Shown here: positions 5,226 to 24,328 of the stretch, one piece after another
How the letters are laid out: the number at the start of each line of letters is the position of its first letter
Numbering within the stretch: the stretch's first letter is position 1
Assembly (NCBI GenBank): GCA_025454795.1
Contig: JALONT010000023.1
Span: forward strand, 1 to 48,254
Length of the DNA stretch: 48,254 nucleotides
Direction of reading: 5' to 3'
Source of the DNA: Bacteroidales bacterium
GTDB taxonomy: Bacteria > Bacteroidota > Bacteroidia > Bacteroidales > VadinHA17
Position numbers and translations under genes: made by a program
The notes under the pieces: model-generated
Seen by the model: only the letters and a program-made list of their open reading frames with translations
The model's database searches: none
Told to the model about the DNA's origin: nothing

Positions 5226-5834
5226 TTAAACTTTTATCTGTTCATAAAGTGCATCCCACTGATGTTTTAATTTTTTAACCATATCTTCCAGGGCTACTCC
5301 CCTCATGATCATGTTAATACCTAATCCGTCACTGACATAGACAAAAATTTCCCCGAGTTTTTCATCAGAAAGAGTAGTTTTTATTTCACCTGACAAACGT
5401 GCGGTTCTAATTATCTTTATCCAGTTTTGCAATTCGATTTTAAACGGTTCCTCAATATTTTTTCTATATTCAGGAAGCAGTCTGAGAGCATCAAATACCA
5501 TGGCAAAGTGATTAATAGTGATTTCACTTTCTCTGAATGCATGCCCAAAAAGTTTAAAATACTCCTGTGTAAGACGAATTGTATCATTGAGATAGTCGTT
5601 GTAAAATTGTTTTAAGGAATCCTGTGAATATGTACTGAAATCTCTTTCAAGTGCTTTATGAAATAGTTTAAGCGACTCGAGAAATACCTCTTCTTTGCTT
5701 TTAAAGTAATGATAGAATGCACCTTTTGACATCCCGGTTTTTTCAACCAGCTCTTTCATAGTTACTTCCTTGAAGCTTTTCTGGAGGAAGAGCCGGGAAG
5801 CTATCAGGGCAATATATTCTTTTGTATCCGACAT
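5226..5834 (-). CDS. TetR/AcrR-family repressor of the efflux operon
   Basis: Protein of 202 residues with an N-terminal TetR helix-turn-helix (about residues 22-50, TMKELVEKTGMSKGAFYHYF, the family signature) and a variable helical ligand domain. TetR regulators normally bind a palindrome near their own promoter and release it on ligand binding. Here the same 20-base motif occurs directly upstream of its own start codon and twice before the next gene, so autoregulation and control of the pump are both expected. The gene is co-directional with the pump genes rather than divergent, which means the regulator can also be co-transcribed with its targets. The inducer is unknown. Confidence 0.93.
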   Translation of the reverse strand: MSDTKEYIALIASRLFLQKSFKEVTMKELVEKTGMSKGAFYHYFKSKEEVFLESLKLFHKALERDFSTYSQDSLKQFYNDYLNDTIRLTQEYFKLFGHAFRESEITINHFAMVFDALRLLPEYRKNIEEPFKIELQNWIKIIRTARLSGEIKTTLSDEKLGEIFVYVSDGLGINMIMRGVALEDMVKKLKHQWDALYEQIKV

Positions 5835-16675: not shown

Positions 16676-17099
16676 TTCGCCAAAATAATAAATATTTGTA
16701 TTACAGAGATATTTCTCCTTGATGAAAATCAGCAGTTTGCTGCTCTAACCAGGGGGGAAGACTGGTCTCCTCCGATGACAGAGTGTGATCCTGTAAGTTT
16801 TGCTTAACAAATCGAAGCAAAGCGGAGATCCCGGCAGAAGAGTCGGAAGAAAAAGCTTTGCTGTGAGTTAATTATCAAAGTGGGTTTAAGCCCCCCTATA
16901 GGGGGTAGGGGGTAAAAAATGGGAGGATTACGCTCCCTGCGGTCGCGTGATCCGTTTTGGGGGTGCTTAACAAAGAAAAACCCCTGTCAGCCTCCTCCGT
17001 CGGCTGGCGGGTTTTTTTATTTCTTCACTTACGCATTCAAACTGCATTTGATGCTCCGTTCGAAATAAAAAACCCCGGCGCTACGCGCCAGGGCTTTTT
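16676..17099. other. Gene-free repeat-rich region left of the mobile element
   Basis: No gene is supported. The first ~200 bases show nothing recognisable. From 16880 there is a C/G-run inverted repeat (CCCCCCTATAGGGGG), repeat copy C (GGGAGGATTACGC at 16921, then GTGATCCGTTTTGGGGG to about 16963), and two terminator-like hairpins. The frame at 16957-17169 lies wholly in these repeats. Confidence 0.6.
16975..17018. terminator. Terminator-like hairpin in repeat copy C
   Basis: Left arm CCCCTGTCAGCC (16981-16992) and right arm GGCTGGCGGG (17002-17011), flanked by an A-run on the left and seven T on the right, so it could act in both directions. Confidence 0.6.
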
Positions 17100-17100
17100 C
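17063..17100. terminator. Terminator hairpin next to attL (displaced tRNA flank)
   Basis: Arms CCCCGGCGC (17073-17081) and GCGCCAGGG (17085-17093) with an A-run on the left and CTTTTTC on the right. On the minus strand this is what should follow the tRNA-fMet gene; here it follows only the duplicated tRNA end at attL, as expected if the mobile element separated the tRNA from its native terminator. Confidence 0.65.
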
Positions 17101-17116
17101 TTTGTAGCGGAGGGAG
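17100..17116. repeat. Putative attL core (duplicate of tRNA-fMet 3' end)
   Basis: CTTTGTAGCGGAGGGAG is identical over 17 bases to 24252-24268, which covers the last 12 bases of the tRNA-fMet gene and five bases beyond. It defines the left edge of the mobile element; the integrase operon begins 272 bases inside. Confidence 0.75.
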
Positions 17117-17242
17117 CGCTAAAATTCGCTTGTTTCTTATATATTCCACTTTTACGCCTAATTACATAAAACTAAAGAAAACCAATAAGATACGCTTATT
17201 GAGTGTAAAAAGAAGTAAAGATATGTTAATAAATAATTGGCA

Positions 17243-17266
17243 AATGTTTCCAATATGTTTCCAATT
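17243..17266 (+). repeat. Element-end repeat, left copy
   Basis: Contains two tandem units TGTTTCCAATA / TGTTTCCAATT. It matches 24188-24211 at 23 of 24 positions. It lies 127 bases inside attL and overlaps the -33 region of the predicted promoter. Probable arm-type integrase or excisionase binding site and possible operator (inference). Confidence 0.65.
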
Positions 17267-17270
17267 AGTT

Positions 17271-17279
17271 TACCTTTGC
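17271..17279 (+). promoter_or_regulatory. Predicted -7 element of the integrase operon
   Basis: TACCTTTGC fits the Bacteroidota TAnnTTTG consensus exactly. The -33 box is not clear, because the repeat at 17243-17266 occupies that position. The structured leader at 17307-17372 follows. Confidence 0.5.
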
Positions 17280-17306
17280 AATGTGGAAACACTGATATGA
17301 AATATT

Positions 17307-17372
17307 AATGCTTCGGATTCCGGGATCAGTAATGACCGGGAGGTATCAGTACCTCCACAAATCCGAGGCATT
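17307..17372 (+). ncRNA. Three-way-junction leader hairpin before the first element gene
   Basis: Outer stem of 13 pairs (17307-17319 AATGCTTCGGATT with 17360-17372 AATCCGAGGCATT, one wobble). It encloses a small hairpin GG(a)TCA-GTAA-TGACC (17323-17337) and a perfect hairpin GGAGGTA-TCAG-TACCTCC (17339-17356). The outer stem is followed by TTAATTTT and the ATG at 17388. It could be an attenuator, a protein-binding leader, or a processed RNA. No known riboswitch class is recognised. Confidence 0.6.
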
Positions 17373-17387
17373 TTAATTTTATAAGCT

Positions 17388-17780
17388 ATGAATTTAAAAA
17401 AAGAATTACAGGAAATCTATGAGAGGGAACCAATAGAATCTCTTTTGCCTCAAAATCTTTCATATCGCCTGCTCAAAGAGCTATCTAATATATGCAATGA
17501 AATTTTGCAGTATTATGCCGCTGAAAATGATGAACCGGCGCCTAAGCAGGCTATTGACATAATATCAACACTTGTTATGTTTTTTCTAAAATGTGAAGAG
17601 CCGAAGAGAATTAGAGAAACGACTGAAACCACTTTTACAGAAATGGCAAAAACATTAACAATAGCTATAGAAAGCGAGTTATTAAGGCGAACGGGGCTAA
17701 TTGAATTTGATAAAATGCCTACGCCGAGGACTATTCTTTATTCAGGTACGATACGATTAACTCCCGGAAAAAATAATTGA
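17388..17780 (+). CDS. Orphan protein, first gene of the mobile element
   Basis: Protein of 130 residues, acidic and mostly helical, without signal peptide or membrane segment (the hydrophobic stretch IISTLVMFFLKC at about 63-74 is probably a buried helix). The start ATG follows the structured leader by 15 bases, and the stop is one base before the integrase start, so the two are translationally linked. I do not recognise a family. Its position suggests a role in regulating integration or in replication control, but nothing in the sequence proves this. Confidence 0.75.
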   Translation: MNLKKELQEIYEREPIESLLPQNLSYRLLKELSNICNEILQYYAAENDEPAPKQAIDIISTLVMFFLKCEEPKRIRETTETTFTEMAKTLTIAIESELLRRTGLIEFDKMPTPRTILYSGTIRLTPGKNN

Positions 17781-17781
17781 T

Positions 17782-19146
17782 ATGGCAACAACGAAATTAT
17801 TACTTCAACAACCGTACAAACAGAGTGGCAGTAAAACGCTTAACCCTCAGGAAACACGACTTTATGTATTCCTAATCATTGACCGTACGCACATGATTAA
17901 GATTAAGACTGAGCATGTGATATTTCCCCAACAGTGGGATTTTAGAAACCAGCGGAAGCAGGATAAACTTGCTGGCGCACTTGAATTTAACAAAAAGCTT
18001 GTATTGCTTAAAGAGGATATTTTAACCAAGTATCAGGAGCTTATAACTGATTACCCTGACATGTCATTTGAGCAGGTCGCACGCACCATGAAGGATTATG
18101 GTAAGACCAAAGAAATACCATTCCTAAATAAGGATAAGGATTTTTTTCAGGTATTGGATGAATTTATTTTGTCCTTGGAAGGAGAAGTCACTCCTCGGAC
18201 AATTCAAAAGTTTGGAACTCTTAAAAACAGTTTACTGGAACTTGGAAAGAGCAACAAAGAATATGAAACTTTAACTTTCAGCATGATTAACCACCAGTTC
18301 AAAGATGCTTATACTAAGTATCTAAGGAACCAAAAGCCAAGAGGAAGGCAGAAAACAAGACCTGAGGGCGAGCAATTTGGTTTATTGAACGATACCATAG
18401 GAAAATATATAGAATGTCTTAAAACGTTTCTTAGGTGGGCTGAACAAAGGAATTATAACCAGTATTCTACTTATAAGGAGTTTTCCAACTTTACCAAGGC
18501 GAATCGCAAGCGTAAGAAGCAGGGACATGACATTGTTACTTTGACATTGCAGGAGCTAAAACACTTTTACGCTTTTGACTTTTCAGGCAAACCAAGTTTA
18601 GAACGTGTCAGGGATCTGTTTTGTTTTGGAGCTTACACCGGGCAAAGATGGAGCGATATAGAGCGCCTTGACAAACTGGAAATACATGACGACATTTGGT
18701 GCTTCACAGCGTATAAAACTAAAAAGGAAACTGAGATTGACCTGATAGGTTATGCAGCCCCGGCGCTTGAAATACTTAAGAAATACGATTACCAGCTACC
18801 AAAGATAAGCCTGACAAAGTTTAACCTGTATATTAAGAAAGCCGCCGAAGATGCTGGCATAAATACCATGGTAAAGATCAGGCGCTATGTCGGTGACAAA
18901 GAGATAGAAATTTCCAACCCGAAATTTGAATTTATCGGCAGCCACACCGCCCGTAAAACATGCGTTTCAATCCTTCTGAATAACTACAACATGAACGTTA
19001 CCCATGTCTTGCAAATAACCGGACATTCAGATTTAAAAACGCTGCAAAAATATATCAATACCGACAGAACAGCCCGCCGGGAGGCTATAAGCAGAACCAA
19101 AAACAGCAACGAACCATTAACCATTGTAAAACAGAAAGCAGGATGA
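17782..19146 (+). CDS. int: Tyrosine recombinase / phage-type integrase
   Basis: Site-specific recombinase of 454 residues that would insert the element at, and excise it from, the tRNA-fMet 3' end. Domains in order: N-terminal arm-binding beta domain (about 1-110, Bacteroidota type), SAM-like core-binding domain (about 118-235), catalytic domain (about 250-440). Catalytic set visible: Arg289 (TGQRWSDI), Lys312, His388-x2-Arg391 (SHTARKT), His415 (TGHSD) and Tyr424 (LQKYINT), so it should be active. The C-terminus overlaps the next gene by four bases (ATGA). The tandem GTTTCCAAT units near both element ends are candidates for its arm-type sites. Confidence 0.95.
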   Translation: MATTKLLLQQPYKQSGSKTLNPQETRLYVFLIIDRTHMIKIKTEHVIFPQQWDFRNQRKQDKLAGALEFNKKLVLLKEDILTKYQELITDYPDMSFEQVARTMKDYGKTKEIPFLNKDKDFFQVLDEFILSLEGEVTPRTIQKFGTLKNSLLELGKSNKEYETLTFSMINHQFKDAYTKYLRNQKPRGRQKTRPEGEQFGLLNDTIGKYIECLKTFLRWAEQRNYNQYSTYKEFSNFTKANRKRKKQGHDIVTLTLQELKHFYAFDFSGKPSLERVRDLFCFGAYTGQRWSDIERLDKLEIHDDIWCFTAYKTKKETEIDLIGYAAPALEILKKYDYQLPKISLTKFNLYIKKAAEDAGINTMVKIRRYVGDKEIEISNPKFEFIGSHTARKTCVSILLNNYNMNVTHVLQITGHSDLKTLQKYINTDRTARREAISRTKNSNEPLTIVKQKAG

Positions 19147-19664
19147 AAAAGAAACCTATTCCGAGAGTAGAAAAATATGTTCGTAAGGACGGAACCCCCG
19201 TTCATCGAGAGTATCATCGGTTCAGTGATATTCCATTACCGTCCAAAGAAGAACATGACGAATCTTATACTAAGGCACTTCTTAAACTGACCCCAAAGAG
19301 GGATTTGGCTCAATTAGAGAAGCATTTCAAAGGCGGTGACAAGTCCCCTAAACCGGACGGCGTTCATAGCAAGATCTCGCTGCCTTACGATAGTCTTAGA
19401 CGGGTATATGCTTTTGTTATTATGAAGGCTGACACCGAGGGGCTTATAGATTTGGTATGTTTGGGAAAGACCAAGCTTATTGAATACATAAAAACGCAAC
19501 CCAAAATTAAGGCTTCGGGGAATACGATATATCAGACTATAAAAACTGGTTATAAAGAGGAATACGCTTTTAATTTCGAGGGTAATTATGCAAAAGCGAT
19601 AAAGGACTTTAAACCAGATTATGACTATGCCATGACAATATTCAAAGATATTTACCCAGATTAA
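19143..19664 (+). CDS. Orphan protein downstream of the integrase
   Basis: Protein of 173 residues, lysine-rich (start MKKKPIPRVEKYVRKDGTPV), mixed alpha/beta, no membrane segment. The start overlaps the integrase stop (ATGA), and a terminator follows directly, so it closes the integrase operon. The short N-terminal part reads like a basic tail that could touch DNA; the middle (about 75-125) looks like a helical domain. No family recognised; a recombination accessory or a cargo function are both possible. Confidence 0.75.
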   Translation: MKKKPIPRVEKYVRKDGTPVHREYHRFSDIPLPSKEEHDESYTKALLKLTPKRDLAQLEKHFKGGDKSPKPDGVHSKISLPYDSLRRVYAFVIMKADTEGLIDLVCLGKTKLIEYIKTQPKIKASGNTIYQTIKTGYKEEYAFNFEGNYAKAIKDFKPDYDYAMTIFKDIYPD

Positions 19665-19684
19665 TTTTGTCAGCTTTTTTGTCA

Positions 19685-19713
19685 GGGGTTACCGAGGGGT
19701 GACCCCTTTTTTA
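19685..19713 (+). terminator. Terminator of the integrase operon
   Basis: Stem GGGGTTACC / GGTGACCCC (one wobble) with a four-base loop and a run of seven T, 20 bases after the stop codon of the orphan gene. Confidence 0.85.
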
Positions 19714-19751
19714 TTGCCGTTTTTTGTACTTTCTAACAGACAAAAGCAGTC

Positions 19752-20036
19752 ATGGATATTTCACAACTTGAAAACGGAACCCTTCTAATTTGTAAAAAGG
19801 AAGATTTACTGGGATTTGCTGAAAGTTTAGCAAACAGGATGCTTAACTCAAAACCAGAGCCTCTGAGAGTACAGGAAACAGAGCAGCCTATCAGCCAGCC
19901 AGACGCTATAAAATTCCTTGGTAAGACCCGCCAGACGCTTACAGCATGGCGTAAGAAAGGAATCATAACAGGTCATGTACTTGGTGGGCGTGTGTATTTT
20001 CTGAAAAGTGAGCTATTGGAAGCACTAACAAAGTAG
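19752..20036 (+). CDS. Excisionase-like helix-turn-helix DNA-binding protein
   Basis: Protein of 94 residues. The C-terminal half (about 47-94) is a winged-HTH of the excisionase/HTH_17 type: PISQPDAIKFLGKTRQTLTA then WRKKGIITGHVLGGRVYFLK. In Bacteroidota elements such proteins bend DNA for excision or regulate element genes. The N-terminal half is a short helical extension. It lies between a terminator and the replication-type genes, so it may have its own promoter. The fold assignment is firm; its role as excisionase is inferred from integrase linkage. Confidence 0.85.
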   Translation: MDISQLENGTLLICKKEDLLGFAESLANRMLNSKPEPLRVQETEQPISQPDAIKFLGKTRQTLTAWRKKGIITGHVLGGRVYFLKSELLEALTK

Positions 20037-20041
20037 TATTT

Positions 20042-20122
20042 ATGGCAACCATGGCATTTATGTATATAGCGTATGCGCCGCTAAGAAACAGCATTGTAAA
20101 TCAGATATATAAAGATAAATAG
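20042..20122 (+). CDS. Possible 26-residue peptide
   Basis: ATG GCA ACC ... TAG encodes a 26-residue peptide (MATMAFMYIAYAPLRNSIVN then six residues) starting five bases after the HTH gene. Short, mildly hydrophobic, no homolog recognised. It could be a leader peptide or chance. Confidence 0.25.
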   Translation: MATMAFMYIAYAPLRNSIVNQIYKDK

Positions 20123-20133
20123 ACGTTATAAAT

Positions 20134-20155
20134 GGAAGCATATTGGAAACATTGC
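20134..20155 (-). repeat. Element-end repeat, internal inverted copy
   Basis: On the minus strand these 22 bases are identical to 24186-24207 and closely match the left copy. They lie 20 bases before the polymerase-like gene, inside its probable leader or promoter, so the same protein could act at the ends and at this control region or origin. Confidence 0.65.
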
Positions 20156-20174
20156 CACAAAAACGAACACTACG

Positions 20175-21515
20175 TTGATAAGTAAAAGATCATATTATCA
20201 GCTCATCCCGGAGAAGGTCTATCAGAACCTTTCAGTCATTGAGAATTCACTGAGGCCTGAGATAAAAGGATATTCAACTGATTACCTCAAAGAAATTATT
20301 TCTATTGTCGCCTGTCATGTGCGAAAAGATGACAAAGAAGATTCGCCATTAAGAGCTGAATATTTAAGACGGTTAGTGCCGTATGCTGAAAAATATCTTA
20401 ATGGATTAATAGAATTAGAAATTATTCAACGGTCACCATATTACATTCCCGGCCAAATAAGTTACAGATACACCTTCACACCGGATTATCAGAGCAAATA
20501 TATTTCATTACCTGTTAATAATGCAAAACTGATCCACCGGATTAAAAAGGCTCATTCTGAATTAGGCAAAGATGCAGTTAAGTTGATTTACGGTCATGCT
20601 TGTCAGGTTAGGTATTTAAAACAGTTGACGCTTGCAGACGGCTGGCAGGAACTTGTTGAGAGCTTCAAAGAAGATACTAACCAGTATAATGCCATACTCG
20701 CATCAGCCATGCGCATAGTTAACGGGGATATTTTTTACAGCCGGGATGCAACCGAGGGACGGTTTCACAGTAATATAACAAATATGAAACGGGAGCTGAG
20801 GCAATATCTAAGGGTAAACAATAAGCCCCTGACAAACATTGATATTAAGAACTCACAGCCATACCTCAGCACAATCATTTTGACTTATCCCTCAAAGGTT
20901 GCAGGGCTTGCAAAAAACATGGCTTTATCAATGTTGTTACAATCTTTGAAAGTATCACAAAATGAAGATGTTAAGCATTACATAAAATTGGTAGCTGACG
21001 GGCTGTTTTATGAAAACCTGATGCAAGAATTTAGCCTTACTAGGGATGAGACAAAAATACAGGTTCTAAGAATCCTATTTGCACCTAACCGACTGCCGAA
21101 AAATGGCATTAACAAAAAGTGCAGGCTGATTTTTAAAGATAGGTTCCCGACTGTTCACCGGATATTTTCAAAAGTAAGGGGAAGGGATCAGGGGACTAAG
21201 TTTGAAAACAGTAACAGGTTTGCTATCCTATTGGCCACAATTGAGAGTTATTTGATGCTGGATGTTATCATGAAGCGAATCTATAAAGAGCTTCCCGGTA
21301 CTATTGCAATTACCATTCATGACAGCATAATGACCGGAATCCTTACAAATGATGTCGAGGCTGTCCGCAAAATAATGGCTGATGAACTTACTTCTTTTGT
21401 CGGTTTTGCACCCAAAATTAAAATTGAAGATTATAACAGCTACTTAGAGAAGAAAGAAGAAGATAATAACTGTATAATACAATATGATGTTACAACCTCT
21501 GTAAGTCTCAATTAA
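20175..21515 (+). CDS. Minimal family-A-like (PolA/T7 RNAP-type) polymerase
   Basis: Protein of 446 residues, probably a template-dependent polymerase for element replication. Motifs in the order of DNA polymerase A: EGRFHSN (195-201, compare TGRLSSS), motif A LTNIDIKNSQP with Asp223, motif B-like R290-x3-K294 with Phe302 at the usual Tyr place, and motif C TIHDS with His382-Asp383. HDS rather than HDE is also the T7 RNA polymerase form. There is no 3'-5' exonuclease or 5' nuclease; the first ~180 residues are helical and unassigned. The start is uncertain: TTG at 20175 is the only standard start after the upstream in-frame stop (20097), and it overlaps a short 17-codon frame (20132-20185). 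DNA or RNA synthesis, or priming, cannot be told apart from sequence. Confidence 0.7.
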   Translation: MISKRSYYQLIPEKVYQNLSVIENSLRPEIKGYSTDYLKEIISIVACHVRKDDKEDSPLRAEYLRRLVPYAEKYLNGLIELEIIQRSPYYIPGQISYRYTFTPDYQSKYISLPVNNAKLIHRIKKAHSELGKDAVKLIYGHACQVRYLKQLTLADGWQELVESFKEDTNQYNAILASAMRIVNGDIFYSRDATEGRFHSNITNMKRELRQYLRVNNKPLTNIDIKNSQPYLSTIILTYPSKVAGLAKNMALSMLLQSLKVSQNEDVKHYIKLVADGLFYENLMQEFSLTRDETKIQVLRILFAPNRLPKNGINKKCRLIFKDRFPTVHRIFSKVRGRDQGTKFENSNRFAILLATIESYLMLDVIMKRIYKELPGTIAITIHDSIMTGILTNDVEAVRKIMADELTSFVGFAPKIKIEDYNSYLEKKEEDNNCIIQYDVTTSVSLN

Positions 21516-21561
21516 TCAATATTTTAGTGAAATATAATTTTTGGTCAAAAAAAATGACGAA

Positions 21562-21756
21562 ATGAAGAAAAAAAGACGGGATTACAGTAAGATAAAATAT
21601 GATGATATTCCGCAAAAAGTGGAGCCTGAGAGGGTGCGAATTAAAAGCCGGATTATAATTAACCGGGACGAGTTTAAAAAGACCTCACATGAAAAGGAAT
21701 TGTTGAAGCTTGCAAAAAGGAAATTCAAAAATGACACTATCAGAAAAGCTAATTGA
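21562..21756 (+). CDS. Small very basic protein
   Basis: Protein of 64 residues from ATG 21562 (a TTG at 21541 would add seven). About a third of residues are Lys or Arg, suggesting nucleic-acid binding. No family recognised. It overlaps the next small frame by 26 bases, so translation may be coupled. It lies between the polymerase and the packaging genes. Confidence 0.5.
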   Translation: MKKKRRDYSKIKYDDIPQKVEPERVRIKSRIIINRDEFKKTSHEKELLKLAKRKFKNDTIRKAN

Positions 21757-21856
21757 GGCACTCTTGTCTGGGACAATATCAGTTCCGACATATATTTTTT
21801 TCATTCAGGAATATAGGAAGCAACTATTAATATTAATGGATTTATCTAAAAATTAA
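21731..21856 (+). CDS. Small overlapping frame of 41 residues
   Basis: ATG at 21731 to TAA at 21856 encodes a 41-residue peptide beginning MTLSEKLIEALLSGTISVPT, predicted as one or two helices. It overlaps the basic protein's end in another frame and stops three bases before the next gene's start, a spacing typical of tightly packed phage genes. No homolog recognised. Confidence 0.45.
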   Translation: MTLSEKLIEALLSGTISVPTYIFFIQEYRKQLLILMDLSKN

Positions 21857-21859
21857 ATT

Positions 21860-22492
21860 ATGAAAACAATTGAGAACGTTTGCGTTTACAGGAACTTGGA
21901 GTATGAGCAGTCAATCAGATCACAAATTGAAGCATCTGGGAAGGTGCTTAGCACTCTCCTGAATGAGTGGTTAAAACTTAACATTGGTGATTGTACCGAC
22001 ATTAACGAACTGGTGATGCGCCCGGAGCGTGTCTATAAAAATGCAATTGATAAGCTGGTTGAGGTTCCAGCAATAAATGGAAGGTTCAGTGTTAAAAAAG
22101 AATCTCATTTGAGCACGCTTGACTTGCCAGATCCTTCACCATTGTACGCAAGTGCAAGGACAATCCGTATGTATCCATACTGTAACGCCAGAGATTTATG
22201 GAACGTGTTTGAAAATGAACTTATAATGAATGAAACCGAGGCTCAGATCTTAGCAGGAGCACAATCAATATTTACCAGTGACCCTGATAAGGCGAAACTC
22301 GCAAAAGACTTTAATAAACTTTGTGATCTACTGAACAGCTTAAACAAGCGACTTAATGGCGAAATCTTACCAGCCACCCCGTGGACTTATAATTGGTGCA
22401 GGGGAAAGTTTGTTTTGAAACAGCAATCATATAACGGTTTACAAGAAGTATCACCTGATGTTGATTTCCTGAGGCGTGTAGTTCAGGGATAA
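21860..22492 (+). CDS. Orphan protein upstream of the terminase genes
   Basis: Protein of 210 residues, soluble, helical with an acidic N-terminal region and a Trp/Tyr-rich C-terminal part (TPWTYNWCRGKFVLKQQSY, about 177-195). No metal or nucleotide motif and no signal peptide. It immediately precedes the TerS-like gene (24-base gap). I cannot assign a family; by location a packaging accessory or replication partner is possible. Confidence 0.75.
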   Translation: MKTIENVCVYRNLEYEQSIRSQIEASGKVLSTLLNEWLKLNIGDCTDINELVMRPERVYKNAIDKLVEVPAINGRFSVKKESHLSTLDLPDPSPLYASARTIRMYPYCNARDLWNVFENELIMNETEAQILAGAQSIFTSDPDKAKLAKDFNKLCDLLNSLNKRLNGEILPATPWTYNWCRGKFVLKQQSYNGLQEVSPDVDFLRRVVQG

Positions 22493-22516
22493 TAACAACG
22501 ACAAAACAATGGCATA

Positions 22517-22822
22517 ATGAAAAAAGCGAATAACCCGCAAAACTTAAAACCTTTCAAAAAAGGTGTATCCGGAAACCCGGCGGGACGCCCGCTAACTATT
22601 CCTTCCATCGACATACTTCTGAGTGAAGTATTCACTGAAAAGGAAAGAATTTCTATTCTTACTTCATTAAAGAAACAGGCTCAGAAAGGGAACATCCGGG
22701 CAATAGAGATAATACTTGACAGACTTTATGGCAAGGTTAAGCAGCAAACAGAACTTTCAGGCTCTATTGCAGCTTCACCAATTACAGGTATTCAAATAAT
22801 CATTGATGATAGCAAAGCTTAA
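22517..22822 (+). CDS. DUF5681-type protein, probable small terminase subunit
   Basis: Protein of 101 residues. The N-terminal FKKGVSGNPAGRP (about 13-25) is the DUF5681 signature, found in many phages and prophages directly upstream of the large terminase. The helical middle (RISILTSLKKQAQKGNIRAI) may be the oligomerisation or DNA-recognition part. In small terminases this protein selects the packaging site. Its end overlaps the large terminase start by 20 bases. It is shorter than many TerS proteins (130-180), so it could be a TerS-like accessory. Confidence 0.75.
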   Translation: MKKANNPQNLKPFKKGVSGNPAGRPLTIPSIDILLSEVFTEKERISILTSLKKQAQKGNIRAIEIILDRLYGKVKQQTELSGSIAASPITGIQIIIDDSKA

Positions 22823-24122
22823 ATTACAGCCTAAACAGGTTCAGGCAGTCGGATATTGGACTGATGATATTTCAGAGGAAATCCTTTATGGCGGCAGTAA
22901 AGGCTGCGGAAAGAGTTTTCTGGGGTGTGCTTTGATATTCTCTGATGCTTTGATGTATCCGGGAACGTCTTATTTCATTGCAAGGCATAATCTGAATGAC
23001 TTAAAGAAATACACTACGCCGTCAGTTATTGAAATGTTTTCAAATATGGATTTGGCTTTTACGGATTACGTTACATACAACGGGCAGGACAGTGTTTTCA
23101 CTTTGCATAATGGCTCAAAAGTCTTTTATATTGATTGTGCTTTCCGACCGTCCGACCCTGTTTATCATCGGTTCGGCTCTTTACAGTTTACACGTGGTTG
23201 GTTTGAGGAGACAGGGCAAATAGATTCACTTGCAATAGATAACTTATCGGTTGCGGCTGGACGTTGGAAAAATTCAGAGTATGGATTAAAGCGGAAGATA
23301 TTACATACCTGCAACCCGAACAAAGGTTATGCTTACAATAACTTTTACTTACCCGATAAAAACGGCACGTTACCAGTTCACCGGAAATTCATTCAGGCAC
23401 TTCCAATTGACAATAAATACTTGACAAGTGATTATCTGGATTCACTCGGCAGGCTTCCAGAGAATGAAAGGGAACGGCTGAAATTTGGGAACTGGGAATA
23501 TGACAGCGACCCGAATACATTAATCGGGTATGATACAATCAATGATCTTTTTACAAATGACTTTGTTAAGGGCGGTAAAAAACGGATTGTGGCTGATATT
23601 GCGAGGTATGGAAGTGACCGAGCTTTGATAACGGTCTGGGATGAGTTTATATTGATTGACTATCTGGCTTTCAATATATCATCCATGGTTGAAATTCAGA
23701 ACGCAATCAGCGCTTTTAAGATCAAATATGCAGTTCAAACATCTGATATAATTGTTGATGAAGATGGGATTGGCGGCGGGGTTGTGGATCATCTGAGATG
23801 TAAAGGATTCCTGAATAATGGCAAACCGACAAAGGCAACCTATCAGAATCAAAAGTCTGAATGTGGTTATAAGTTAGCTGAAAAAGCGGGTCTGATTTGG
23901 GTTAAGTGCGAACTCCCAGACAGGGAAAAAGAGATGATCCGGCAGGAACTTGGAATGTTAAAGACTTATGAATCAGATAAAGACGGTAAGTTAAGGATAC
24001 TGCCAAAGGAAAAGATTAAAGAACATATTGGACGTTCCCCTGACTGGTTGGATGTGTTTATAATGCGGATGTTTTTTGAGACAGCGATCAGAATTGAATC
24101 CCATCAAAAATGGCATTTATAA
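22803..24122 (+). CDS. Phage terminase large subunit (packaging ATPase-nuclease)
   Basis: Protein of 439 residues, normal length for TerL. ATPase half: Walker A GGSKGCGKS (30-38), Walker B with catalytic Glu in GWFEETG (132-138), coupling motif HTCNPN (168-173). Nuclease half (RNase H-like): Asp265 in VADIARYGSDR, Asp319-Glu320 in IIVDEDGIGGG, and Asp414/Asp417 in SPDWLDVFIM. All active-site parts are present, so a functional motor is expected. TerL normally docks on a portal and cuts concatemers; no portal gene is here, so it would have to use one from a helper phage. A terminator follows at 24157. Confidence 0.93.
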   Translation: MMIAKLKLQPKQVQAVGYWTDDISEEILYGGSKGCGKSFLGCALIFSDALMYPGTSYFIARHNLNDLKKYTTPSVIEMFSNMDLAFTDYVTYNGQDSVFTLHNGSKVFYIDCAFRPSDPVYHRFGSLQFTRGWFEETGQIDSLAIDNLSVAAGRWKNSEYGLKRKILHTCNPNKGYAYNNFYLPDKNGTLPVHRKFIQALPIDNKYLTSDYLDSLGRLPENERERLKFGNWEYDSDPNTLIGYDTINDLFTNDFVKGGKKRIVADIARYGSDRALITVWDEFILIDYLAFNISSMVEIQNAISAFKIKYAVQTSDIIVDEDGIGGGVVDHLRCKGFLNNGKPTKATYQNQKSECGYKLAEKAGLIWVKCELPDREKEMIRQELGMLKTYESDKDGKLRILPKEKIKEHIGRSPDWLDVFIMRMFFETAIRIESHQKWHL

Positions 24123-24156
24123 TAGTTTTTTCTTCCATGTGTGTTTTTAGGTTTGA

Positions 24157-24182
24157 GGCTCTCAGAAATGGGAGCCTTTTTT
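24157..24182 (+). terminator. Terminator after the terminase gene
   Basis: Stem GGCTCTC / GGGAGCC (one wobble), six-base loop AGAAAT, then six T. It ends the element's late transcript. Confidence 0.85.
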
Positions 24183-24185
24183 ATA

Positions 24186-24211
24186 GCAATGTTTCCAATA
24201 TGCTTCCAATT
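24186..24211 (+). repeat. Element-end repeat, right copy
   Basis: The first 22 bases (24186-24207) are identical to the inverted copy at 20134-20155. Positions 24188-24211 match the left copy (17243-17266) in the same orientation with one mismatch. It lies 41 bases inside attR, at the right distance for an arm-type integrase site. Confidence 0.65.
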
Positions 24212-24215
24212 TCAA

Positions 24216-24250
24216 TAAAAAAAGCCCGTAAGTTGTTGACTTACAGGCTT
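24216..24250 (-). terminator. Terminator of tRNA-fMet (element-supplied)
   Basis: On the minus strand AAGCCTGTAAGT - CAACA - ACTTACGGGCTT followed by a T-run, directly after the tRNA 3' end. Because it lies inside the element border, the element appears to bring a replacement terminator for the tRNA. Confidence 0.7.
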
Positions 24251-24256
24251 CCTTTG

Positions 24257-24328
<72 letters not shown>

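Follow-up and report, generated by a model that had tools for sequence, protein, structure and literature searches.

Can a short mobile element that carries a complete DNA-packaging motor, and in which no gene for a shell was recognised, travel as a phage satellite? This question is raised by a 7.15-kb island (positions 17100-24268) in the genome of a Bacteroidales bacterium of the VadinHA17 lineage (assembly GCA_025454795.1, contig JALONT010000023.1, 48,254 nucleotides; this whole stretch is referred to below as the window). The analysis indicates that the island is probably an integrated phage satellite resembling the phage-inducible chromosomal islands (PICIs), one that packages itself with a complete terminase, consisting of the small (TerS) and large (TerL) subunits, and takes capsid, tail and lysis functions from a helper phage.

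The island is an integrated element, as shown by its terminal repeats, by empty sites in relatives and by a sister island. It is bounded by exact 17-bp direct repeats CTTTGTAGCGGAGGGAG, namely attL (17100-17116) and attR (24252-24268), the latter overlapping the 3' end of the integration target, an intact tRNA-Met gene (anticodon CAT; 24256-24328, minus strand; ARAGORN; Rfam RF00005, 66.8 bits). The anticodon stem of this tRNA, by reading of the sequence, contains three G-C pairs, which is consistent with an initiator tRNA. A match of at least 16 bp occurred in none of 1913 random pairs of same-size stretches taken from the window. In genomes of the same genus, empty sites were found in which a hairpin-rich flank comparable to the window sequence left of 17100 directly follows the tRNA; in the window, this native tRNA-downstream flank (16960-17099, minus strand, according to the joined-flank alignments and printed flanks) is parted from the tRNA by the island. 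Inspection by eye of 15 printed tRNA ends gave 11 ends of the empty type, two with serine-recombinase-like genes (L139 and L144) and two with a right end similar to that of the window (L145 and L149). When the window flanks were joined in silico and compared with 15 loci, they aligned across the junction with L135 (89% identity over 228 columns), L148 (89% over 219) and L146 (74% over 422), the only loci of the empty type in this comparison. The sister island L186 (genome G409, same genus) sits at the same tRNA-Met, has a length of ~8.2 kb and is bounded by the 12-bp repeat CCTCCGCTACAA at 5766 and 13961.

The island contains nine ORFs, all open and all on the plus strand, which were searched against the Pfam, PHROGs and NCBIfam databases. 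Two traits expected of a satellite were found. Att-flanked integration with an integrase and a putative excision factor is seen in the sequence, the former being a tyrosine integrase of 454 aa (17782-19146; PF00589, 1.4e-9; PF13102, 2.1e-8) and the latter a Xis/AlpA-like helix-turn-helix (HTH) protein of 94 aa (19752-20036; HTH_17, PF12728, 5.8e-7; phrog_66 excisionase, 1.1e-5). In addition, the nine ORFs match no portal, capsid, tail or lysis family and no relaxase, transfer or conjugation family. The gene at 20175-21515, with a TTG start, encodes a 446-aa protein with the predicted fold of a family-A polymerase and no exonuclease domain. At the tRNA end, a TerS-like DUF5681 protein of 101 aa with a PITGxQIIxD tail (22517-22822; PF18932, 2.5e-9) is followed by a TerL of 439 aa (22803-24122; phrog_2, 1.8e-23), for which ATG 22806 is the likely start, as in relatives. 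A previous sequence-only reading of the window had described clean att-like repeats at the tRNA end, listed this gene content and reported no portal, capsid, tail, lysis or conjugation gene between the ends. All of this was borne out: the integrase, the excisionase-like HTH and the DUF5681/TerS-like gene by Pfam and PHROGs, the complete TerL by PHROGs, and the polymerase by its predicted fold.

The genes form two units, an int unit and a xis-to-terL unit, split by a terminator-like hairpin (19684-19707, plus strand); a second terminator-like hairpin (24155-24178, plus strand) ends the xis-to-terL unit, both hairpins being consensus matches only. An 18-bp repeat TTGGAANNATATTGGAAA, whose pattern was taken from the island itself, gave three matches in the 48-kb window at no more than 2 mismatches, all within the island, and three matches were reached in none of 100 shuffles. 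The left copy (17247-17264, minus strand) is a candidate integrase arm site, the middle copy (20132-20149, plus strand) lies just 5' of the polymerase gene and is a candidate regulatory or origin site, and the right copy is at 24192-24209 (minus strand). A copy was also found after xis in L188 and at the right ends of L145 and L149. The positions of the copies suggest integrase arm sites.

In two sister genomes (L139 and L144), serine-recombinase-like genes extend up to this tRNA-Met from its left, which suggests that unrelated integrases also use the site. Second att-like copies were observed no more than 300 bp from the tRNA at two otherwise empty sites (L135:2011-2305 and L140:418-611); they are possibly scars of lost islands.

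The packaging genes of the island are related to those of phages. TerL aligns end to end with TerL proteins of 436-438 aa and is therefore full length; its match with the Pfam terminase family (8.9e-4) is under the Pfam cut-off. The identity of TerL is 80%, 75%, 69% and 71% with the proteins of viral contigs L033, L035, L036 and L037, respectively, and 77% with that of viral contig L034. In L033, L035 and L036, the gene after TerL encodes a portal protein (PF04860, E-values of 3.4e-34 or better), and a PF05065 capsid gene is present in L033 and L036. In L034, the gene 5' of TerL encodes a terminase small subunit (phrog_606, 1.4e-49). Fourteen TerS-like proteins were compared, of which L048 and L049 are near-copies. 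The 11 proteins that precede such a TerL (window, L032-L037, L048-L051) have varied N-terminal parts and end in variants of PITGxxIxxD, and this tail is missing in the three proteins without TerL (L172, L176 and L177). At the DNA level, the window is similar to L032 at 22624-24079 (78%) and to L034 at 22778-24080 (73%); since this similarity starts within TerS and stops with TerL, the cassette boundary lies inside TerS and its end is at TerL. We infer from these sequences that the TerS tail may bind TerL and that the mobile cassette would comprise the tail and TerL, with the DNA-reading part being swapped. In the island, terS and terL are both open and overlapping.

TerL of this kind was found in few of the bacterial genomes searched. 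At an E-value of 1e-60 it was found in 3 of 295 genomes of the class (own genome included), the other two loci, L045 and L046, being seen over ~4.2 kb only. At 1e-20 it was found in 2 of 117 genomes of the family (own included); the second case is a 59-residue fragment with 85% identity and an internal stop (G337:C19:139868-140044, locus L171), which is not on the contig of the G337 island and is a possible remnant of a related terminase. The scan of genome contigs with the TerL alignment found no relative. Viral contigs L032 and L034 were considered as candidate free satellites. In L032, no portal was found within 630 bases after TerL, and TerL itself is broken by an in-frame TAG at codon 362; the L034 contig ends 95 bases past TerL. 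Neither an integrase nor a terminal repeat was seen on the contigs L032 and L034. Two human faecal 5-kb scaffolds, H6 and H7, were considered as small satellites and rejected, both looking like phage pieces by inspection.

Islands of a similar organisation were found in the taxonomic family. Their common gene order is integrase, orf, HTH, (HNH), replicase, small orf, (orf210-like gene) and TerS, with gaps in single members. In the sister island L186, the integrase, Xis and TerS-like proteins show 60%, 49% and 42.5% identity with those of the window; an orf210-like gene is present, an HNH protein with a weak AP2 match occupies the position of the window's polymerase, and no TerL was found by the queries used. 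The integrase type of the window occurs in 4 of 117 family genomes; L188 and L189, which have this type, are ended by contig ends and contain, by inspection, replicative-helicase-like genes. The 7.9-kb island L177 (G350), flanked by 49-bp repeats at tRNA-Pro, has DUF5681 (1.3e-12) on its tRNA side. The 9.3-kb island L170 (G337) is flanked by repeats of 42 bp at tRNA-Arg; it carries a prohead protease gene (L170:10520-11155; PF04586, 5.8e-31), after which come a gene of 107 aa and a TIR_2 gene. No capsid gene was recognised in L170, and this island may be a variant of the same chassis that hijacks capsids. L176 (G348) has DUF5681 at 1.4e-8. Of the 117 genomes of the family, 7 (own included) match PF18932, 6 of them above the cut-off; in six genomes (G000, G350, G348, G409, G413 and G453) DUF5681 is in or beside integrase-bearing islands, and in the seventh, G444, it lies beside a tape-measure gene and tRNA-Met. 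L185 has a tape-measure gene (L185:1-2070; phrog_1538, 8.2e-7) and, near it, DUF5681, beside tRNA-Met. At the contig end of L075, a tape-measure-like gene (L075:12757-13959) is located near a TerS-like gene; it was assigned by an in-house hidden Markov model (HMM) that included L075 as a seed, and neither PHROGs nor Pfam names it. The polymerase position is occupied in L187 by an AAA_25 protein, related to the AAA_25 protein of viral contig L032, and in L184 by an unassigned 301-aa gene. Across the island family, TerS-like or head genes recur singly.

At L172:5864-6793 (G444), second-polymerase fragments and a DUF5681-like gene adjoin an intact Int-polymerase element; these are possibly tandem islands. 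This DUF5681-like gene was counted by an in-house HMM and has no Pfam match.

The resemblance of TerS-TerL to viral contigs with a portal after TerL, and the continuation of L075 into a tape-measure-like gene, would suit an origin of the island as the remnant of a deleted prophage. Such an origin is highly improbable and was rejected: the repeats are exact, all nine ORFs are open, relatives have empty sites, and similar compact islands are found at three different tRNAs. Besides, the right end appears to have evolved as such rather than to be a scar left by a deletion, since both a terminator-like hairpin and a TTGGAANNATATTGGAAA copy are located between TerL and attR and the right ends of L145 and L149 are similar.

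It may also be supposed that the island is an integrative element which replicates itself and spreads by transformation or generalised transduction, TerS-TerL being recent cargo idle in transfer. Many loci, mostly of Flavobacteriia, have an integrase, HTH and polymerase and no recognised phage gene. Moreover, TerL is found in this copy only: in-house HMMs detected no TerL, portal or capsid gene in 77 other loci with the polymerase gene, a survey in which the HMMs were built on 3-12 seeds, several loci represent one genome twice and many end at contig ends. Yet a TerS-like gene is present in the sister island at the same site, and in four more genomes of the family DUF5681 lies within or next to integrase islands. 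The terS and terL genes, besides being open and overlapping, retain the tail of viral contigs, and several islands, as well as viral contig L034, combine an orf210-like gene with TerS. In view of these data, the idle-cargo explanation is rather unlikely.

The terminase pair, or TerS alone, might otherwise serve as an interference device against helper packaging, that is, as anti-phage defence, with transfer secondary. TerS-based interference is known in the Staphylococcus aureus pathogenicity islands (SaPIs). The relatives contain defence-like cargo, namely TIR_2 in L170 and, by inspection, restriction-modification-like genes in L076, as well as single phage morphogenesis genes. However, a complete and well-conserved TerL exceeds the needs of a decoy, and hijacking and interference can coexist, so that a primary role in interference seems quite improbable.

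Since TerS is present in the sister island L186, which occupies the same tRNA, and no TerL was found there, TerL looks like an add-on to a TerS-bearing chassis. The chances are about even that these islands constitute a separate satellite family of Bacteroidota, in which a common chassis (integrase, orf, AlpA-like HTH, interchangeable replicase, orf210-like gene and TerS) is combined with bolted-on single late phage genes: TerS alone, TerS with a tape measure, a prohead protease, or a complete TerS-TerL motor needing only the helper's particle. No Bacteroidota satellite family was found described in the open-access literature searched, where papers were judged largely by title. The sequence-only reading had proposed a distinct satellite type bringing a motor and a polymerase. 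The integrated state, the related tRNA islands, the recurrence of single TerS or head genes and the full-length phage-like TerL agree with a satellite type; the combination of polymerase and motor does not define it, as TerL was found in none of the 77 other loci and the sister island has TerS only. A search for the full order Int-HTH-polymerase-TerS-TerL, which that reading had suggested, found it in no other genome and nowhere else in the data searched. The same reading had regarded relatives in which the block runs on into portal, capsid and tail genes as the sign of a prophage remnant. This continuation exists for the TerL cassette, given the portal after TerL in L033, L035 and L036; it was not seen for the Int-HTH-polymerase block, though L075 reaches a tape-measure-like gene at a contig end.

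Several observations weigh against a self-packaging satellite. Neither an excised circle, nor a packaged copy, nor a helper was observed, the island being known here from its sequence alone. The host genome (99% complete, 86 contigs) contains no second TerL of the island kind; its only other phrog_2 match is a 320-aa ORF, presumably PhoH, of a kind matched in most of 42 genomes (L109, the same genome as L101, was left out of this comparison). PF04860, the only portal family searched for, is absent from the host genome, and the scan of viral contigs with the integrase alignment revealed no relative. Rough pairwise dN/dS values, which themselves count in favour of the satellite, are 0.06 with L032 (dS 1.8), 0.041 with L033 (dS 3.9) and 0.064 with L035 (dS 2.7), three other pairs being saturated; these values span lineages at dS 1.8-3.9 and say nothing on the island's own branch. 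In a tree of 17 TerL sequences, the window and L032 grouped together (81/79), and a single clade of the three candidate-satellite TerLs received only 61/78. Finally, the polymerase alone is no satellite mark, because most polymerase loci show no recognised phage gene. As to the helper, the lack of a second TerL of this kind and of PF04860 in the host genome makes an infecting phage more likely than a resident prophage.

If the island is a self-packaging satellite, its integrase would keep it at the 3' end of tRNA-Met, and the Xis-like HTH protein would drive excision upon infection by a helper phage. The polymerase, perhaps starting from near the 20132 repeat, would then copy the circle, as its fold suggests. 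TerS would read island DNA with its own N-terminal part and dock on TerL with its phage-like C-terminal tail, and the island TerL would pump monomers or concatemers into helper procapsids. Portal, capsid, tail and lysis functions would be those of the helper, plausibly a tailed phage like L033, L035 and L036, and carriage of both TerL and TerS would provide independence from the helper's terminase. A motor without any shell would provide a natural experiment on how far terminases and portals are interchangeable and would bear on why satellites retain or lose packaging genes; the family would offer a handle on phage satellites in Bacteroidota.

PICIs rely on the large terminase of their helper, and an Stl-type master repressor and capsid-size genes are among their traits. 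Such reliance is not seen in the island, which has its own full-length TerL, although it might still use that of a helper. Neither an Stl-type repressor nor capsid-size families were found among the nine ORFs, four of which have no known family. Of the PICI trait of a packaging-redirecting TerS, the island has a TerS-like DUF5681 gene with the tail of viral contigs, a candidate for redirection only. PICIs and SaPIs, described in part in the excerpted text of PMC10690885, are small att-flanked islands that encode an integrase, a regulator, a replication protein of their own and, in certain members, a packaging-redirecting TerS; in that text, SaPIs either use the helper terminase directly or supply TerS. 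The island is similar to these elements, but it is found in Bacteroidales, has a family-A polymerase as the replication gene, carries TerL too and has no recognised capsid-size gene. In the same excerpts, capsid-forming PICIs and the Streptomyces satellites MulchRoom and MiniFlayer possess, like the island, both terminase subunits; they also have portal and capsid genes (PMC10690885), none of which was recognised in the island.

VEIMEs and tycheposons, both named in the satellite literature that was available in part, are like the island integrating elements and have been proposed as satellites of marine bacteria; a VEIME with TerL and without a capsid gene is conceivable. The phage-inducible chromosomal minimalist islands (PICMIs) of Vibrionaceae, described in the part of PMC10803314 that was available, resemble the island in their size (~6 kb), core excision and replication proteins and use of full-sized helper particles; they differ in their location next to fis and in that, in this part of the paper, the authors found no terS or packaging-redirecting gene (PMC10803314), whereas the island has TerS-like and TerL genes and is integrated at tRNA-Met. 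Since PICMI DNA of 6 kb travels as a concatemer inside helper particles of full size (PMC10803314, same part), an element of the island's size can travel without capsid remodelling. The Pseudomonas satellite AH14b also has its own primase and is packed in the helper's capsid, but its length is 16.8 kb and no terminase gene was found by its authors, as far as the excerpt states (PMC4936722). In these excerpts, described satellites either take the motor of the helper, adding at most a small terminase subunit, or bring a motor together with a shell (PMC10690885, PMC10803314 and PMC4936722); further satellite literature was available in part (PMC11389934 and PMC13376191). Apart from VEIMEs and tycheposons, which were compared on their general description, no satellite with TerS and TerL but no shell was found described in the open-access literature searched. 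A prophage would have structural and lysis modules between its att sites, and a conjugative or mobilisable island would have relaxase or transfer genes, unlike the island, in which neither was recognised.

Five of the nine ORFs have no informative family match, one of them being the polymerase, assigned by its fold. No family was assigned to orf130 (17388-17780) and orf210 (21860-22492), which have no Pfam, PHROG or NCBIfam match. Only weak matches, and no named family, were obtained for orf173 (19143-19664), which overlaps the int stop. Related islands have a gene of ~200-360 aa at this position, and orf173 was grouped with the genes of L075, L170 and L177 by an in-house HMM that had those genes among its seeds. 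The small basic protein orf71 (21541-21756) likewise shows weak matches only and no credible named family; small genes are located 3' of the polymerase in relatives too, according to an in-house HMM seeded with orf71 and three such genes. The orf210 product shows 31% identity with a protein of L034, and the orf210-like genes of relatives are near TerS. Pairwise searches with orf210 gave no link to L172, L184 or L186, and the links to L186, L184, L172 and L177 come through small HMMs only: an HMM built without the window sequence recovers orf210 at 7.5e-6, another matches L184 (4.6e-8), L172 (5.5e-7) and L177 (3.9e-6), and the hhalign probabilities are low (15% for L172 and 22% for L177). The L187 gene was not linked to orf210. 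Scans with orf210 detected L034 only among viral contigs, the own genome only among class genomes (1 of 295) and none among phage records.

The AlphaFold2 model of the polymerase (pLDDT 85) shows a predicted family-A polymerase fold, and the protein has no Pfam match. Conserved aspartates are present at the places that we take to be motifs A and C (28 of the 40 listed loci were used in this comparison beside P0005). Motif C of DNA polymerase I is HDE. The island enzyme is like the DNA polymerase I family in its predicted fold and conserved aspartates, but has HDS at motif C, a length of only 446 aa and neither an exonuclease domain nor a Pfam match. The predicted fold is compatible with either DNA or RNA as the product. 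With the own genome counted, 19 of the 295 genomes of the class and 13 of the 117 genomes of the family contain the polymerase. It is common to many islands without a recognised phage gene, and other genes can replace it. Among viral contigs, the polymerase alone as a query found none, and the polymerase alignment found three distant contigs. As a mobile-element replicase, this compact family-A polymerase is worth assaying. Distant relatives of it were also observed in huge uncultured phages (LR756501-LR756504, LR756511 and LR745206) and on a Hymenobacter plasmid (NZ_CP060788.1).

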